A DNA stretch of 30,357 nucleotides. It comes from a virus. A program made the position numbers and the translations under genes. The stretch lies in IMG/VR virus record IMGVR_UViG_3300021959_000246, positions 1-30,357 of that record. One strand, 5' to 3'. Positions within the stretch are counted from its first letter, which is position 1, and each line of letters begins with the position of its first letter. Below, in pieces: positions 1,765-27,841 of this stretch. The notes under the pieces are model-generated. The model saw nothing but the letters and a program-made list of their open reading frames with translations. It made no database searches and was not told the origin of the DNA.

Positions 1765-2010
1765 GAACGCTATTACTTATATTAGCTGCATTGTTGGACG
1801 AGGGTTCGATACCCTCCACCTCCACAAATAGTTTATTAACAATATGGGGGTGACTGGATTTGACACAATGATAAGGATGTAAGGAAGTTCAACGCATAAC
1901 TGGCGCACAAGTTGAAATGGCGATGGCGGCTTAATTTAAGCACCTTGACCCAACGGTTGAAGAAGCACACCGTTTAAGCTTCGGAGGTTTAAGAGGTAAA
2001 AATTTAAAAA
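1765..2010 (+). ncRNA. ssrA: circularly permuted two-piece transfer-messenger RNA (tmRNA)
   Basis: tmRNA rescues stalled ribosomes by acting as alanyl-tRNA and as a short mRNA for a degradation tag. Here the gene order is permuted. The acceptor piece comes first: T stem GAGGG 1800-1804 with CCCTC 1812-1816, T loop TTCGATA 1805-1811, acceptor 3' strand CACCTCC 1817-1823, discriminator A1824. After a 21-nt spacer comes the coding piece, starting GGGGGTG at 1846-1852. These strands form a 7-bp acceptor stem with the G3-U70 alanine identity pair (G1848-U1821). A D-loop-like ACTGGATTTGACAC follows. ACAATG 1865-1870 pairs with CATTGT 1789-1794 as P2. The tag frame is 1902-1934. A pseudoknot forms at 1952-1982. 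CCA is not encoded. No T arm exists downstream of the coding piece, which excludes the normal arrangement. The outer ends are estimates. Confidence 0.9.
1902..1934 (+). other. tmRNA tag reading frame, GAQVEMAMAA
   Basis: Codons GGC GCA CAA GTT GAA ATG GCG ATG GCG GCT TAA. The context before GGC (ATAACT) has A at -4, -6 and U at -5, as in known tmRNAs. The tag ends in AMAA, a hydrophobic-Ala-Ala degron of the ClpXP/ClpA type. A Gly first residue is usual for Bacteroidetes tags. If the resume codon were GCA at 1905 the tag would be one residue shorter. The stop lies in a small hairpin (GCTTA 1929-1933 with TAAGC 1937-1941), as is common for tmRNA P5. Confidence 0.8.
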
Positions 2011-10154: not shown

Positions 10155-10679
10155 ATGAGAAAAAGACCTATATATAAATTCAATCCTTTAGATTTTGAAA
10201 GAGATGTTGCAATAGGATTAACGCTGCCTCTTACAAATGATGCAAGTGCTGAACGTAGGTATTCATTCGAAACCTTAATCCCATCAGGTAGTTCTTCAGG
10301 CCAGCTGCCTCACAACTCTAGCATAAAAGGAAGTAGCGGAGGTGACTTTCATCAATCATATACTACAGTAGAACAGACCAAATCTAATTTGATAAATCTA
10401 GTTCTTACAAACAGAGGTGAAAGACCAATGCATCCAGAATTTGGGTGTGATGTTTGGAAAACTCTTTTTGAAAATAACACAGCTAGTGTTAGAGAAGAGT
10501 TGGAGAGACTTATAAAAGAACAAGTTATGTTATGGCTTCCTTATGTAGATTTAAAGAGTGTAAAAGTTGAACAGCTACGAACAAATGAGAATAGAATGAA
10601 TATAAAAATAGATTGGTCTTTATTCAAAGGTAACAGTATGGATTTACAATCAATCGCATTAGATATAGGTGAATTATAA
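10155..10679 (+). CDS. 25: baseplate wedge protein gp25
   Basis: GPW/gp25 family wedge component, which joins gp6 and helps initiate the sheath. The hallmark NRGERPMHPEFGCDVWKTLF occupies about residues 86-105, preceded by the helix KSNLINLVLT. The family's conserved Glu-Pro-Arg-like element appears as E89-R90-P91. Compared with the usual length (about 130 residues) it carries an extra Ser/Gly-rich segment near residues 36-64. The C-terminal strands (KSVKVEQLRTNENRMNIKIDWSLF) match the family. The gene is followed directly by gp6, with a one-base overlap (TAATG), the conserved T4-like order. Confidence 0.9.
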   Translation: MRKRPIYKFNPLDFERDVAIGLTLPLTNDASAERRYSFETLIPSGSSSGQLPHNSSIKGSSGGDFHQSYTTVEQTKSNLINLVLTNRGERPMHPEFGCDVWKTLFENNTASVREELERLIKEQVMLWLPYVDLKSVKVEQLRTNENRMNIKIDWSLFKGNSMDLQSIALDIGEL

Positions 10680-12604
10680 TGGCAAATGACTGTAACATAG
10701 ATAAGAAAGTAACTAAAGATATAAAGTATCTTAACAAAGACTTTGGCAAGTTTAGAAGTGACCTTATAAGCTTTGCTAAATCATACTTCCCTGAAACATA
10801 TAACGACTTTAACGAATCGTCACCGGGTATGATGTTTATAGAAATGTCAGCTTATGTAGGAGACGTTTTATCATATTATGTCGATGACCAATTAAAAGAA
10901 AGTTTGTTAATGCATGCTGAAGAACGAGCTAACGTCGTTGATTTAGCAAAAGCATTAGGATATAAAACAAAACCTTCAATACCTTCTCTTGCACAGCTTT
11001 CGGTTTACCAAGTAGTACCGGCAATATTCCCAGGCGGTGGCCAAGTTAAGCCGGATATGAGATATGCAATGGAAATTGCAGAAGGTCTTACATGTACATC
11101 TGGAGAACACGAATTTATAACTCAAGATAAAGTAGATTTTAAAGCTAGCAGTTCTTCAGACCCTATGGACATATCAGTATATCAAATTGATGATACAACT
11201 GGAGAACCTACATACTACTTGTTGAAAAAAGAAGTTAGTGCGATGAACGGTAAGCTTGAAACCGAAACATTCGAATTTACAGAACCTGAAAAATTTAACA
11301 AGATAACACTTAGTAAAGATAATGCTGTAGCAGTTACAGATGTAAAGGATGCTGACGGCAATAAATGGTGTGAGGTTGAATATCTTGCTCAAGACAATAT
11401 ATTTGAAGATGTAATAAACAACTGGTCAGCTGACCCTTCAATGTCTGCGTATAATTATGACGCACCATATATATTAAAACTTAGAAGAACAGGAAGAAGA
11501 TTTACTACTCATGTAAAAGCAGATAACTCGACTCAACTTTGGTTTGGAGCAGGTATATCATCTCAACCTGATGAGTTAATAGTTCCTAGTCCTTCCAATG
11601 TAGGTCTTGCATTACCTTATGGTAATACAACTCAAAATTATATGAATGGAACTAATTATGTTGATGTTGCATTCGACCCTGCAAACACAATGTTCACAAG
11701 ACAGTATGGAGAAGCTCCAAGAGATACAACACTAACAGTTAAGTATATTGCAGGTGGCGGAATAAGTTCTAATGTAGCTGCAAGAACAATAGATACAATA
11801 ATTGATTCTACAATGTGGTTAGACGAAGATGGACTTCCTAGTGGTACTGTTAAGACTGTAAAAGATTCTTTAGCTATAATAAATTTAAACCCTGCTGTAG
11901 GAGGTAGATCTGCAGAATCAACAGATGATATAAAACAAAACGCTTTGGCACATTTTGCATCTCAAAACAGAGCTGTAACACGAGAAGATTATATAGCAAG
12001 AGTATATGCAATGCCACCTAAGTATGGTTCTGTATCTAAAGCTTACTTGGACAAAGACGAACAATATTGGATTCAGACTGTAGGAACACACGAGATAAAA
12101 AATCCATTAGCTATAAATTTATACACTCTAGCTTACGATGATAACAAGAATTATGTGCCGTTAACTCCACTAGCTAAAGAAAACTTACAAACATATATCT
12201 CTCAATATAGAATGTTGACAGATGCGATAAATATAAAAAACGCACACATAATAAACATAGGTGTAGACTTTGGAGTTTTACCAAGACCTGGTTATCAAAA
12301 CAAAGAAGTATTGCTTCGATGTATTAAAAAATTAAGATGTATATTTGACCCTGATAACTGGTCTATAAACGAACCTATAATACTTCCAAAGATAGCTACA
12401 GAGCTAGATAAAGTAGAAGGTGTACAGACTGTAAAAAGTCTAAGAATATTTAACCTGTTTGATAAAGAGTCAGGTTATAGTGGAAACATATATGATATAA
12501 AAGGTGCAACAAGAGAAGGTGTTGTATATCCATCTCAAGACCCATGCATATTTGAAGTTAAGAATTTAGATACCGATATAAAAGGTAGAATCGTAGGATA
12601 TTAA
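10679..12604 (+). CDS. 6: baseplate wedge protein gp6
   Basis: Large wedge subunit that forms the ring around the hub (J/gp6 family). The N-terminal region shows the usual pattern FGKFRSDLISFAKSYFPETYNDFNESSPG followed by MFIEMSAYVGDVLSYYVDDQLKESLL (about residues 22-85). The C-terminal half has the J-like core (QNALAHFASQNRAVTREDYIARVYAMPPKYGSVSKAYL), a family signature around residues 420-460, and final domain VLLRCIKKLRCIFDPDNWSINEPI. At 641 residues it matches T4 gp6 (660). It overlaps gp25 by one base and is followed two bases later by the next virion gene. Confidence 0.9.
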   Translation: MANDCNIDKKVTKDIKYLNKDFGKFRSDLISFAKSYFPETYNDFNESSPGMMFIEMSAYVGDVLSYYVDDQLKESLLMHAEERANVVDLAKALGYKTKPSIPSLAQLSVYQVVPAIFPGGGQVKPDMRYAMEIAEGLTCTSGEHEFITQDKVDFKASSSSDPMDISVYQIDDTTGEPTYYLLKKEVSAMNGKLETETFEFTEPEKFNKITLSKDNAVAVTDVKDADGNKWCEVEYLAQDNIFEDVINNWSADPSMSAYNYDAPYILKLRRTGRRFTTHVKADNSTQLWFGAGISSQPDELIVPSPSNVGLALPYGNTTQNYMNGTNYVDVAFDPANTMFTRQYGEAPRDTTLTVKYIAGGGISSNVAARTIDTIIDSTMWLDEDGLPSGTVKTVKDSLAIINLNPAVGGRSAESTDDIKQNALAHFASQNRAVTREDYIARVYAMPPKYGSVSKAYLDKDEQYWIQTVGTHEIKNPLAINLYTLAYDDNKNYVPLTPLAKENLQTYISQYRMLTDAINIKNAHIINIGVDFGVLPRPGYQNKEVLLRCIKKLRCIFDPDNWSINEPIILPKIATELDKVEGVQTVKSLRIFNLFDKESGYSGNIYDIKGATREGVVYPSQDPCIFEVKNLDTDIKGRIVGY

Positions 12605-23793: not shown

Positions 23794-24705
23794 ATGAATA
23801 AAAGTAGACGATTACTCAATTTATTTGAGAGTGTTTTAGGAAAGTCAATGACAAGTGGTAATGAAGCCACTTTTTCTTGTCCTTATTGCAACCATCATAA
23901 GAAAAAATTAGTAATAAATGTTATAACTCAAAAATGGCATTGCTGGGTATGTGGTGTAAAAGGTGTTGGAGCAGAAAGAATATTTAAGAAAATAGGCGCG
24001 GCGGGAAAAATAAAAGAACTACACTCACTTACAGGTGTAAAAAGAAAGACCGACGACTCTAAGGATATTCAACATGTTGCTTTACCATTAGAGTTCAAAC
24101 CCATGGTAAACGGCTCTGTAAATAATCCAGAATTTAGAAACGCAGCTAAATATTTAAAGTCTAGAGGTATAACAAAGACAGACGTTTTAAGATATAATAT
24201 AGGGTTTTGCGACTCAGGTCAATATAACGGTATGGTTATAATACCTAGTTACAACAAGGAAGGAATATTAAATTACTTTGTAGGAAGGTCTTATTATGAC
24301 ACAGACTTTAAACACAAGAATCCAAAAACTTCTAAAGATGTTGTAGGTTTTGAAATGCTTATTAACTGGAAAGAAGACATTAACATTTGCGAAGGTGTTT
24401 TTGATGCAATAGCTATAGGTGAAAACTCAATACCTATATTTGGAAAGTTCTTACCTAAATCGCTGCGGTCTACTATAAAAGAAAACGATGTTAAAAGAGT
24501 AAATATACTTTTAGATAGCGATGCTAAAAATGAGTCTATAAAGCTATGTGAATATTTACAATCTGAAAATATAGATGTTAGAATAATTGAAATGAAAGAC
24601 GACGAAGACCCTAGCACACTAGGTCATGAAAAAATTACTAAGCTTATTAGTAAATCTAAGACTGTCGACTTTGCAAAACTATTGGAGATGAAATTTGGAC
24701 TTTAA
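23794..24705 (+). CDS. DNA primase, DnaG-like (gp61 role)
   Basis: Primase of the zinc-ribbon plus TOPRIM type, which lays RNA primers for the replication fork. The zinc ligands are C29, C32 (SCPYC) and C50, C53 (CWVC). The TOPRIM domain begins near INICEGVFDAIAI (about 196-208, catalytic Glu200) and continues with ILLDSDAKNE (about 239-249, the DxD-like motif). At 303 residues it is shorter than DnaG, lacks its helicase-binding domain, and compares with T4 gp61 (342). Its promoter-like upstream and replacement among structural genes suggest separate timing. It overlaps the nuclease-ATPase gene by 11 bases. Confidence 0.88.
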   Translation: MNKSRRLLNLFESVLGKSMTSGNEATFSCPYCNHHKKKLVINVITQKWHCWVCGVKGVGAERIFKKIGAAGKIKELHSLTGVKRKTDDSKDIQHVALPLEFKPMVNGSVNNPEFRNAAKYLKSRGITKTDVLRYNIGFCDSGQYNGMVIIPSYNKEGILNYFVGRSYYDTDFKHKNPKTSKDVVGFEMLINWKEDINICEGVFDAIAIGENSIPIFGKFLPKSLRSTIKENDVKRVNILLDSDAKNESIKLCEYLQSENIDVRIIEMKDDEDPSTLGHEKITKLISKSKTVDFAKLLEMKFGL

Positions 24706-27700
24706 TAAAATTGATGTAGGATTTGATAAACTAGAAAAAGTATTACATGTTGCAGACATACACATACGAAATTACCAAAGGCACAAAGAATATAGAAAAG
24801 TATTCAGACAGTTATATAAAGAAGTTGACAAACTTCCTAAAAACTCAATAGTTTATGTAGGTGGTGATATAGTTCATAGTAAGACTGATATTTCACCTGA
24901 GCTTATAGACGTTACGTGCGAGTTTCTTAAAAACTTAGCAGATAGAAGACATACTATAGTTATAACAGGTAATCACGATGCTAATTTAAACAACTCATCT
25001 AGACTTGATTCATTATCACCTATGATTGAATCTCTAAACCATCCTAAACTACACTACCTTAAAGATTCTGCTGTTCATGAAATTGCAGACACTCACTTTG
25101 TAGTGTTTAGTATATTCGACGACCCAAAAACATTTATAAAATCAAACTCATTTGAAGCAGATACAAAAGTAGCACTTTTTCATGGAGCACTTGATATGTC
25201 ATACACAGACGCTGGATATAAAGTAGAAAGCGATGATTTAAAAGTATCTATGTTTGATGGTTACGATATGGTCATGTTAGGTGACATACATAAAAGGCAG
25301 TTTTATAATAAGTCAGAAACAATACTACAGGTAGGTTCACTTATACAGCAGAATTTTGGAGAAGCTTTTGATAAACACGGATGCGCTATATGGGATATCG
25401 ATAAAAGAAAAGCTAGCTTTGTTGATTTTGAAAACGTGCACGGTTTCTACACAATAAATGTTAAAGATGGCGTACTACCTAATATAGACAGTATACCAAA
25501 ATATCCTAGAGTTAGAATACGTACTGAAAACACAACACAGGCTCAATTAAAAGATATAATTAAAAACATAAAAAGCAAGTGTAAGACAACCGATATAGTT
25601 ATAATAAAAAATGACAAACTTAATGCTCAAAATAAAACTACAAGGTCTGTAACTCGAGACATTAGAGATGTACAATACCAAAATGAGTTGTTAGAAGAAT
25701 ACATAGGTACAAACCACCCTGCAGATGACGAAACAATAAGACGTATAAAAAATATAAACACAGAACTTAACAAATCGCTTTCTACAACTGAAATATCTAG
25801 AGGTGTTAGATGGACTCCTAAAATGTTTGAGTTTTCTAATATGTTTAGTTATGGAGAAGGCAATGTAATAGACTTTAGCAAGCTTCGTGATGTTATAGGT
25901 GTATTCGCACCAAACCACGCAGGTAAATCTGCTATATTAGATGCACTAATGTTTTGTATATTCCATAAATGCTCTAGAACTAAATCAGCCACAGACGTGT
26001 TGAATAATAAAAAGAAAAACTTTTATTGTAAACTGTCTTTTGAAATTGACGGAGTACAATACTTTATAGAACGAAAAGGTAAGAAAGAAAAGAAAGGTCA
26101 TGTCCGTGTAGATGTAAACTTTTGGATGATAGGTGAAGACGATAGTATAATATCGCTTAATGGAGAACAGAGAACTCAGACAGATAAGAACATTAGAGGT
26201 TATCTAGGTTTATATAATGACTTTGTTCTAACTTCTATGTCTGTACAAAATAATAATACAGGATTTATAGACCAGTCACAAACTGAAAAGAAAGATTTGC
26301 TTTCTCAATTCTTAGATATAACAGTATTTGAAGAGCTATATCAACTCGCTAATGAAGAGATAAAAGAGGTACAAATACTTTTAAGAAATTTTGGAAAAAC
26401 AGACTACTCACAACAGCTTATAGATGAAGAGGACAATTTAAAGAAATACGAATCAGCTTATAAAAAACTAGAACAAGCAAACAAAGAAATACAGAAGCGA
26501 TACACTAAAAAAGAAAACCAGATACACAGCAAAGTAAAAGAGCTAAAAAATATAACAATAGAAAACGATATTGAAAAACTTGAATATAAAAAATCATGCT
26601 GCGAGCAAGATATAAAGGTATATAATTACAAGCTTGAAAAATATAAGAATTATAAAAAGGCCAATAAGGTTAAAATATCTGACATTATTTCTAAAATGTC
26701 AAAAATAACAATAGATGAATTGAATGCAAAGAAATCTGTATTAGATGTTGAAAAAGACAATAACTCAAGATTGGTAAGAGAGATAGAAGTTATAAAGGTA
26801 AATGTTAGAAACAAACTTGATTTAATATCTAAATTAGACACACATGAATATGACCCTAATTGTAATTATTGTTGTAATAACGAATTCGTAAAAGCAGCAG
26901 ACAAGGCAAAAGCTGAGCTTGTAGAAGATAAAGTAATAGTTAATAAGCTTTTAAATGATAAAACAATATCAGACAAGATACTTAGCGACAAGCTTTCTGT
27001 AGAAAATTTAATAAGTGCATATAATTCTTTAGAATCAGAAAAAGTGACAATTCTCCAATATGAATCAGAAATTATCATTAAGTCAGAGCAAAGAAAGTCT
27101 GACCTACGCGCAAAGAAAACTGAATTAAAGGGTATAGAGCGTGACATAGAGAAGTATCACAAAAACAAAGAAACTATAAAGGCAAATGAAAAGATAAACG
27201 CATCTATTGAAAAGCTTAAGATGGAGAAGGTAAGTATAAAACTAGAGTTGGACGGAAGTCAAACCGATATACAGCAAGCATATAGCAACGTTTCTATAAC
27301 TAGTCAGAATATAGCAAACATAACAACGACCATAAGCGATGCGCATGAATTAGAGCTTAGACTAAAGTCATATGAGTTTTATTTAGATGCAATAAGACGT
27401 GACGGTATACCATATGAAATAATAGCAGAAACGCTTCCGTATTTAGAGGAAGAGATAAACAATACTCTGTCTCAAATAGTTAATTTTGAAATTGAGTTTG
27501 ATGTTGATGGTAAAAACATACTGAGTTATATAAAATACGGACAAGACGACAGATGGCCTTTGGAGTTAACATCTGGAATGGAGAAATTCATTAGTTCATT
27601 AGCGATAAGAGTTGCACTTATAAAAATATCTAATTTACCTAGACCTAACTTTCTCGCAATAGACGAAGGCTTCGGTAACCTAGACTCAGAAAACATAAAC

Positions 27701-27841
27701 TCAATTTCAATGCTGTTCGATTATCTTAAAACAGAATTTGATTTTGTTGTAATCATATCTCATATCGACATAATGAAAGATATGGTTGATGGCCTTATAG
27801 AAATAAGCAGATCTAAAGGATTAAGCCAAGTTATTGTCTAA
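24695..27841 (+). CDS. single-chain gp47-gp46 (SbcD-SbcC) recombination nuclease
   Basis: This 1048-residue protein fuses a Mre11/SbcD-type nuclease to a Rad50/SbcC-type ATPase, which in T4 are separate gp47 and gp46 that resect DNA ends for recombination-dependent replication. The nuclease motifs are D21-x-H23, GGD58, GNHD95 and later FHGAL and GDIHKRQ (about 196). The ATPase has a Walker A-like stretch APNHAGKS (near 405), a long coiled coil with zinc-hook CNYC (about 722), a signature TSGMEKFISSLA (about 958) and Walker B FLAIDEGFGNLD (about 985). The only in-frame start near the N terminus is TTG at 24695, with GGAG 7 nt before it. It overlaps primase by 11 bases. Confidence 0.88.
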   Translation: MDFNKIDVGFDKLEKVLHVADIHIRNYQRHKEYRKVFRQLYKEVDKLPKNSIVYVGGDIVHSKTDISPELIDVTCEFLKNLADRRHTIVITGNHDANLNNSSRLDSLSPMIESLNHPKLHYLKDSAVHEIADTHFVVFSIFDDPKTFIKSNSFEADTKVALFHGALDMSYTDAGYKVESDDLKVSMFDGYDMVMLGDIHKRQFYNKSETILQVGSLIQQNFGEAFDKHGCAIWDIDKRKASFVDFENVHGFYTINVKDGVLPNIDSIPKYPRVRIRTENTTQAQLKDIIKNIKSKCKTTDIVIIKNDKLNAQNKTTRSVTRDIRDVQYQNELLEEYIGTNHPADDETIRRIKNINTELNKSLSTTEISRGVRWTPKMFEFSNMFSYGEGNVIDFSKLRDVIGVFAPNHAGKSAILDALMFCIFHKCSRTKSATDVLNNKKKNFYCKLSFEIDGVQYFIERKGKKEKKGHVRVDVNFWMIGEDDSIISLNGEQRTQTDKNIRGYLGLYNDFVLTSMSVQNNNTGFIDQSQTEKKDLLSQFLDITVFEELYQLANEEIKEVQILLRNFGKTDYSQQLIDEEDNLKKYESAYKKLEQANKEIQKRYTKKENQIHSKVKELKNITIENDIEKLEYKKSCCEQDIKVYNYKLEKYKNYKKANKVKISDIISKMSKITIDELNAKKSVLDVEKDNNSRLVREIEVIKVNVRNKLDLISKLDTHEYDPNCNYCCNNEFVKAADKAKAELVEDKVIVNKLLNDKTISDKILSDKLSVENLISAYNSLESEKVTILQYESEIIIKSEQRKSDLRAKKTELKGIERDIEKYHKNKETIKANEKINASIEKLKMEKVSIKLELDGSQTDIQQAYSNVSITSQNIANITTTISDAHELELRLKSYEFYLDAIRRDGIPYEIIAETLPYLEEEINNTLSQIVNFEIEFDVDGKNILSYIKYGQDDRWPLELTSGMEKFISSLAIRVALIKISNLPRPNFLAIDEGFGNLDSENINSISMLFDYLKTEFDFVVIISHIDIMKDMVDGLIEISRSKGLSQVIV

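Follow-up and report, generated by a model that had tools for sequence, protein, structure and literature searches.

The window, by which is meant the whole analysed stretch of 30,357 nucleotides of viral DNA (IMG/VR record IMGVR_UViG_3300021959_000246), carries a real circularly permuted tmRNA gene, in which the 3' tRNA part stands 5' of the 5' tRNA part, and the gene is very likely functional. The full explanation preferred here, that of a circularly permuted tmRNA gene of a large tailed phage which would serve in ribosome rescue and whose permutation probably had an origin separate from those already known, is put forward with high confidence.

Organization of the permuted gene

The permuted, two-piece order was proposed in a first-pass annotation of this DNA and is recovered by direct reading, ARAGORN, and Rfam alike. 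In a covariance-model search of the whole window against 4227 Rfam families, of the kind suggested in that annotation as a check, RF04321 (tmRNA_permuted) matched positions 1775-1934 at 64.4 bits (gathering score 47, E 1.9e-10), which is far beyond chance and was the sole gathering-level match. ARAGORN called a single tmRNA in the window, flagged as permuted, at 1735-2025 with the tag GAQVEMAMAA. A normal T arm downstream of the coding piece, whose presence in related genomes was earlier named as one finding that would speak against a permutation, was detected in the window by neither ARAGORN nor Rfam, and neither gave a one-piece tmRNA match there. Direct reading confirms all the positions first given, those of the T arm, the two acceptor strands, the 21-nt spacer, and P2, and likewise the acceptor stem of seven pairs with a G-U third pair (G3-U70). 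The features of the locus are as follows.

1753-1761, + strand: promoter-like motif ATATTTATA just 5' of the acceptor piece, one of six copies in the window; promoter function putative
1766-1824, + strand: acceptor (3') piece (Rfam RF04321, ARAGORN, alignment A1); 5' end approximate, placed from the ATATTTATA motif
1769-1786, + strand: possible hairpin GCTA...TAGC near the 5' end of the acceptor piece, read from the sequence; similar ones seen by eye in relatives
1789-1794, + strand: P2 5' strand CATTGT, partner of 1865-1870 (covariation)
1800-1816, + strand: T arm with stem GAGGG/CCCTC and loop TTCGATA (direct reading; relatives show double changes of A-T to T-A and G-C)
1817-1823, + strand: acceptor stem 3' strand CACCTCC (direct reading; acceptor covariation across viral contigs)
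1825-1845, + strand: intervening spacer of 21 nt between the two pieces (direct reading; 16-22 nt in most relatives)
1846-1852, + strand: acceptor stem 5' strand GGGGGTG, which opens the coding piece (direct reading, Rfam)
1846-1990, + strand: coding (5') piece (ARAGORN, conserved pseudoknot); 3' end approximate
1865-1870, + strand: P2 3' strand ACAATG (covariation)
1902-1934, + strand: tag frame GAQVEMAMAA plus stop (ARAGORN; GEQVE(M/L)AMAA conserved in relatives)
1952-1957/1969-1974 and 1962-1966/1978-1982 (about 1942-1988), + strand: H-type pseudoknot 3' of the tag (position shared by about 40 relatives, in which changes are compensatory)
2018-2893, + strand: next ORF, 291 aa, unassigned, which sets the downstream limit

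The acceptor piece of the window ends in ACAA with A73 at 1824, and CCA is not encoded. The tag is read from the codons GGC GCA CAA GTT GAA ATG GCG ATG GCG GCT TAA and, as in a tmRNA tag, finishes with small hydrophobic residues ahead of the stop; the resume context in the coding piece is CATAACTGGC.

Conservation and covariation among related phages

The gene belongs to a lineage found in over 40 IMG/VR phage contigs, where an exact pattern on its two halves matched 30 viral contigs and a looser pattern matched 40, while a general permuted-gene pattern gave at least 120 viral matches. Since the window is a single metagenomic contig, an assembly artefact or a chance resemblance might be considered, but a near-identical contig (L017) and dozens of others carry the gene and the Rfam E value is 1.9e-10, and this explanation is refuted. 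In the window lineage, the tag is GEQVE(M/L)AMAA or near it and is almost constant (GEQVELAMAA type), while the flanking sequence varies.

Compensatory changes among homologues, whose absence had been proposed as a ground for rejecting the gene, are present in P2, the T stem, and the acceptor stem. In P2, 96 of 108 pairs are standard over 18 distinct strand combinations (best of 5000 shuffles, 88), and in alignment A1 both sides have changed in four of the six P2 pairs and in one T-stem pair, with pairing falling from 89.5% to at most 55% when the partner is slid by 1-3 columns. A1 shows no variation in the acceptor stem, whose sequence was prescribed by the search pattern; in the general set, among the matches listed, pairing at positions 5-7 of the acceptor holds in 49 of 60 cases for 20 distinct combinations, while shuffling gave no more than 42. 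Among contigs of the window's tag family, the stem is GGGGATG/CATCTCC in L147, L077, and L103 and GGGGCTG/CAGCTCC in L155 and L156. When P2 was pooled over all permuted viral tmRNAs among the matches listed, its pairing was not significant (289/498 against a shuffle maximum of 298), because the fixed P2 offset is valid only in the window lineage. For the pseudoknot, matched stem variants (GAAGC/GCTTC, GAGAC/GTCTC, and GGGAT/ATCCC) occur at the same position in about 40 sequences; scores of individual sequences alone were not significant against shuffles, and the case for this element therefore lies in its constant position and covariation, although a second test is biased by picking the pairing positions per sequence.

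The completeness of the gene also bears on whether it could be what is left of a host tmRNA gene, as a relic or as a fragment from an integration site, which would fit with tmRNA genes being common integration sites whose phage copies may restore the gene (PMC11590407). Both halves, the tag, and the pseudoknot are nevertheless complete and under compensatory selection, and the covariation largely refutes such an origin; no integrase was found in the scanned subset of window ORFs, and phages that are otherwise similar either have the locus or cleanly lack it, all of which leaves a relic very improbable. An upstream gene and a downstream RNA-like element are common to L177, L178, and L185 without a tmRNA between them, while L179, L180, L181, and L186 have the tmRNA at that same locus, and thus the gene has been gained or lost cleanly there.

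Some members of the lineage depart from the usual dimensions. Two same-lineage permuted tmRNAs (L023:9943-10189 and L042:486-731) have a tag frame that is very long (GTQIKSVKAGIFASLAAIRLLATETVATEESVYAMAA in L042) and closes with the usual AMAA, and a much longer inter-piece spacer with repeated ACTATATTCA/GATATAAT blocks that could form hairpins occurs in L180 (upstream of 2949), L183, and L184. A conserved, RNA-like element some 95 nt long (GAGGGTATTAGGAACTCTCACCCTC...GCGTCTGAGACGTCGCGGATAGCT...GAGTTCAGCTGGG) lies 3' of the tmRNA, for example at L022:1860-1965, and is also found in L002, L005, L009-L011, L013, L020, L025, L027-L029, and L177-L186, including the three contigs without the tmRNA (L177, L178, and L185), and it precedes an ORF (WTIDEVLDPxSxFWD). 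Two of its stems covary by eye, one of them as a possible pseudoknot, and no Rfam family matched it at gathering score; it is possibly a riboswitch or leader of a type not yet known.

Putative promoter and proposed mode of action

The motif ATATTTATA occurs six times in the window (at 1753, 7811, 9719, 13637, 19444, and 27848), all on the coding strand, against 1.75 copies expected. In three larger relatives, copies on the coding strand outnumber those on the other strand by 27 to 2, 29 to 4, and 15 to 2, and 22/27, 20/29, and 9/15 of them, respectively, have an ORF start within the next 60 nt, compared with 5-9% of random positions. The motif is probably a phage promoter element, judging from this strand bias and placement, and it differs from the T4 late promoter TATAAATA. 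Both in the window and in most relatives it directly precedes the acceptor piece, and the tmRNA therefore probably has its own start near 1766-1772. The strand-specific occurrence of ATATTTATA just 5' of ORFs was seen in this phage group in the window, G002, G062, G064, and immuto.

Known two-piece tmRNAs are made from a single precursor that is cut by tRNA-processing enzymes (PMC11915505). The promoter-like motif directly upstream of the window gene may give the tmRNA its own expression, and one transcription unit would yield a precursor whose order can be read from the sequence: T arm and acceptor 3' strand, 21-nt spacer, acceptor 5' strand, D region, and then the tag frame and the pseudoknot. 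By analogy with the known cases, RNase P cleavage at 1846, together with 3' trimming and CCA addition after 1824, would excise the spacer (1825-1845), and the acceptor stem and P2 would keep the two resulting RNAs together. The G-U acceptor pair of a tmRNA directs alanine charging, which is accordingly expected here, and the alanyl-tRNA synthetase of the host would accept the molecule as a substrate. Together with host SmpB, the molecule may then enter stalled ribosomes and add its tag, so that during infection ribosomes would be released and the tagged proteins marked for host proteases. No smpB was found among the window genes examined, and the phage would for this reason depend on the SmpB of its host.

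A different role, that of a decoy which ties up SmpB or obstructs trans-translation in the host, has been proposed for the TLD-only tmRNA (TLD, tRNA-like domain) of mycobacteriophage DS6A, and a TLD-only phage tmRNA is cited as inhibiting E. coli tmRNA (PMC4131195, PMC11915505). In the window lineage, however, the tag frame is open, near-constant over dozens of phages, and ends in AA before the stop, and the resume context is conserved; since a decoy needs neither a tag frame nor a resume context, this role is improbable here, and rescue by tagging remains the preferred function.

Relation to known two-piece tmRNAs

The initial statement that no permuted tmRNA was known to have been described in such a phage is contradicted by the T4-like marine myophage Melnitz, a Methylophilales phage with a two-piece tmRNA (PMC9004378, 2022), and by annotated records of crAss-like and Chryseobacterium phages. 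Two-piece tmRNAs account for 53 of 133 unique phage tmRNAs by ARAGORN, and 50 of these 53 are marine or aquatic (PMC9004378). Phage two-piece tmRNA is thus already published, and the value of the present case is a possible fourth origin of the permutation and the test that it offers. A tmRNA is annotated in the GenBank/RefSeq records of the crAss-like phages cr10_1, cr50_1, cr60_1, cr114_1, and cr125_1 and of Chryseobacterium phage MA9V-3; ARAGORN calls all six permuted, and Rfam agrees for cr10_1, cr50_1, cr114_1, and MA9V-3, while for the crAss-like cr53_1 the permuted call comes from Rfam alone. A literature search limited to main texts found no published statement of a permuted tmRNA in Bacteroidota phages.

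Melnitz and the pelagimyophages resemble the window in carrying a permuted tmRNA in a marine T4-like myophage, but their tmRNA is of the alphaproteobacterial type and adjoins a glutamine riboswitch (PMC9004378), whereas the TLD, the tag GAQVEMAMAA, and the resume context of the window are of another type. The family RF04321 comprises alpha, beta, and cyanobacterial permuted lineages (PMC11915505), and the window shares with it the order of parts, the acceptor stem with its G-U pair, the T arm, P2, the tag frame, and a score above gathering. Its 64 bits are low, however, beside the 122-143 of nearly all SAR11 genomes sampled, and it differs in having TTTGAC instead of TTCGAC, a tag that starts with G instead of A, and no encoded CCA. 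Similarly, the crAss-like and MA9V-3 permuted tmRNAs have the GGACGAGGG T arm and a G-starting tag as in the window, and the crAss-like ones have TTTGAC, but their spacers are 59-213 nt long and sometimes hold a tRNA gene, their tags (GNxxVTDYT..., GNVIDINKY...) differ, and the phage groups are unrelated. In cr114_1 (L036:647-718), an intact tRNA gene lies within the inter-piece spacer, and RAGATH RNAs (Rfam) occur upstream in L036, L351, L352, and L342.

Origin of the permutation

Whether the gene represents an independent permutation or a transfer was left open at first; the TLD, the tag start, and the resume context favour a separate permutation, the AU tests are borderline, and transfer from SAR11 is unlikely. 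In a comparison of 142 distinct TLDs of about 49 nt, the window differs at only 2 of 49 positions from the one-piece L246 and at 3 from the one-piece L309, in a one-piece set that was retrieved with a T-arm pattern near that of the window; such a choice favours likeness in that half and leaves the D half unselected, and the bacterial-type sequences of the set were drawn from viral contigs only. The tag of L309 is GETNYALAA, a tag known from Bacteroides. The TLDs of the one-piece Bacteroidota-type tmRNAs of L261, L309, and Cellulophaga phage Calle_1 are nearly identical to that of the window, and L261 and L309 have the GGC resume codon and the GE tag start of the window lineage; these tmRNAs differ from the window in having a downstream T arm, a continuous RNA, and a match to RF00023. 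In one case, a permuted gene that adjoins a phage head gene (L259) is identical over 49 nt to the one-piece L261 (tag GENNYALAA). A tag that starts with G is found in 26 of the 42 permuted genes with TTTGAC but in 6 of the 105 with TTCGAC, and the AACTGGC resume context in 31/42 and 7/105, respectively. With a TLD and a tag start of the Bacteroidota one-piece type, the permutation was probably separate from the alpha, beta, and cyanobacterial ones, and on this sequence evidence a separation from all three known lineages is favoured.

Inheritance or transfer from one of these lineages, with the TLD later drifting or being converted toward the Bacteroidota type, would agree with the shared architecture and single Rfam model of all permuted genes and with the alphaproteobacterial type of the pelagimyophage two-piece tmRNAs (PMC9004378). 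It would also agree with the AU test, in which a single clade of all permuted forms was not firmly rejected (p 0.023 or 0.066 depending on the row set, from 52 columns with little signal). Such descent is nonetheless less likely, given that the window TLD differs at 8 or more of 49 positions from the AND-tag permuted genes, whose tags are of the proteobacterial type, and at 13-14 from SAR11, against 2-3 from one-piece TTTGAC genes, that the tag start and resume context differ, and that the SAR11 T arm GGACGTGGGGGCAGTACCCAC, ATCGAC, and ANDKFALAA are unlike the window. In 30 SAR11 genomes, the tmRNAs have the T arm GGACGTGGGGGCAGTACCCAC, ATCGAC, ANDKFALAA-type tags, and an encoded CCA, and a SAR11 donor was rejected; by its TLD, its tag start, and its 3' end without CCA, the window gene is not of the SAR11/alphaproteobacterial type. 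Within the TTTGAC permuted genes, a single origin was not rejected (AU test, p 0.144). When 84,980 genomes of bacteria and archaea were scanned for permuted genes of the GGGGGTG/TTTGAC form, the one match was L042, in a Pelagibacter/SAR11 MAG; it was rejected as a bacterial carrier and is a phage contig, since the MAG has its own separate tmRNA and the contig carries phage-like genes.

There is an even chance that phages of Bacteroidota and neighbouring phyla (T4-like, crAss-like, and Chryseobacterium phages) carry a lineage that was permuted separately from a one-piece Bacteroidota-type tmRNA and has been kept while their hosts stay one-piece. A further phage-borne origin, if true, would mean that the permutation is repeatable and may be favoured in viruses, where a split gene could be immune to integrases that target the one-piece 3' end or could escape a host factor. 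It also opens the test of whether a two-piece phage tmRNA works with the SmpB of a one-piece host.

Phage and host

The description of the phage as T4-like is supported by its T4-type baseplate wedge genes (gp25-like phrog_43/261 at 10155-10679; gp6-like phrog_6 and related at 10679-12604). Its baseplate, neck-region, and recombination proteins are nearest to those of Microcystis phage Mel-JY01, Flavobacterium phage immuto, and the huge phage LR756508 (30-46% identity), with which gene order is also shared.

Genes of Bacteroidota phages typically lack a Shine-Dalgarno sequence. In the window, GGAG/GAGG precedes 13 of 29 genes against 2.1 expected, compared with 1 of 55 genes in immuto, and the window's host was therefore probably not an ordinary member of the Bacteroidota; a Pfam search was uninformative about host origin. 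In relatives with the tmRNA, the share of genes with a Shine-Dalgarno sequence is 3% in G063, 10% in G002, 45% in G062, and 55% in G064, so that one tmRNA lineage seems to be at work in phages with different hosts, and the sharpness of these differences suggests hosts from different phyla. The Bacteroidetes-like setting first suggested thus agrees with some relatives, which lack Shine-Dalgarno sequences, but less well with the window and two relatives, which use them. The window also contains, at 24695-27841, a single ORF of 1048 aa with SbcD-like and SbcC-like parts (phrog_100, phrog_77), a fused nuclease of the Mre11-Rad50 type, which is matched end to end by one ORF of about the same length in Mel-JY01.
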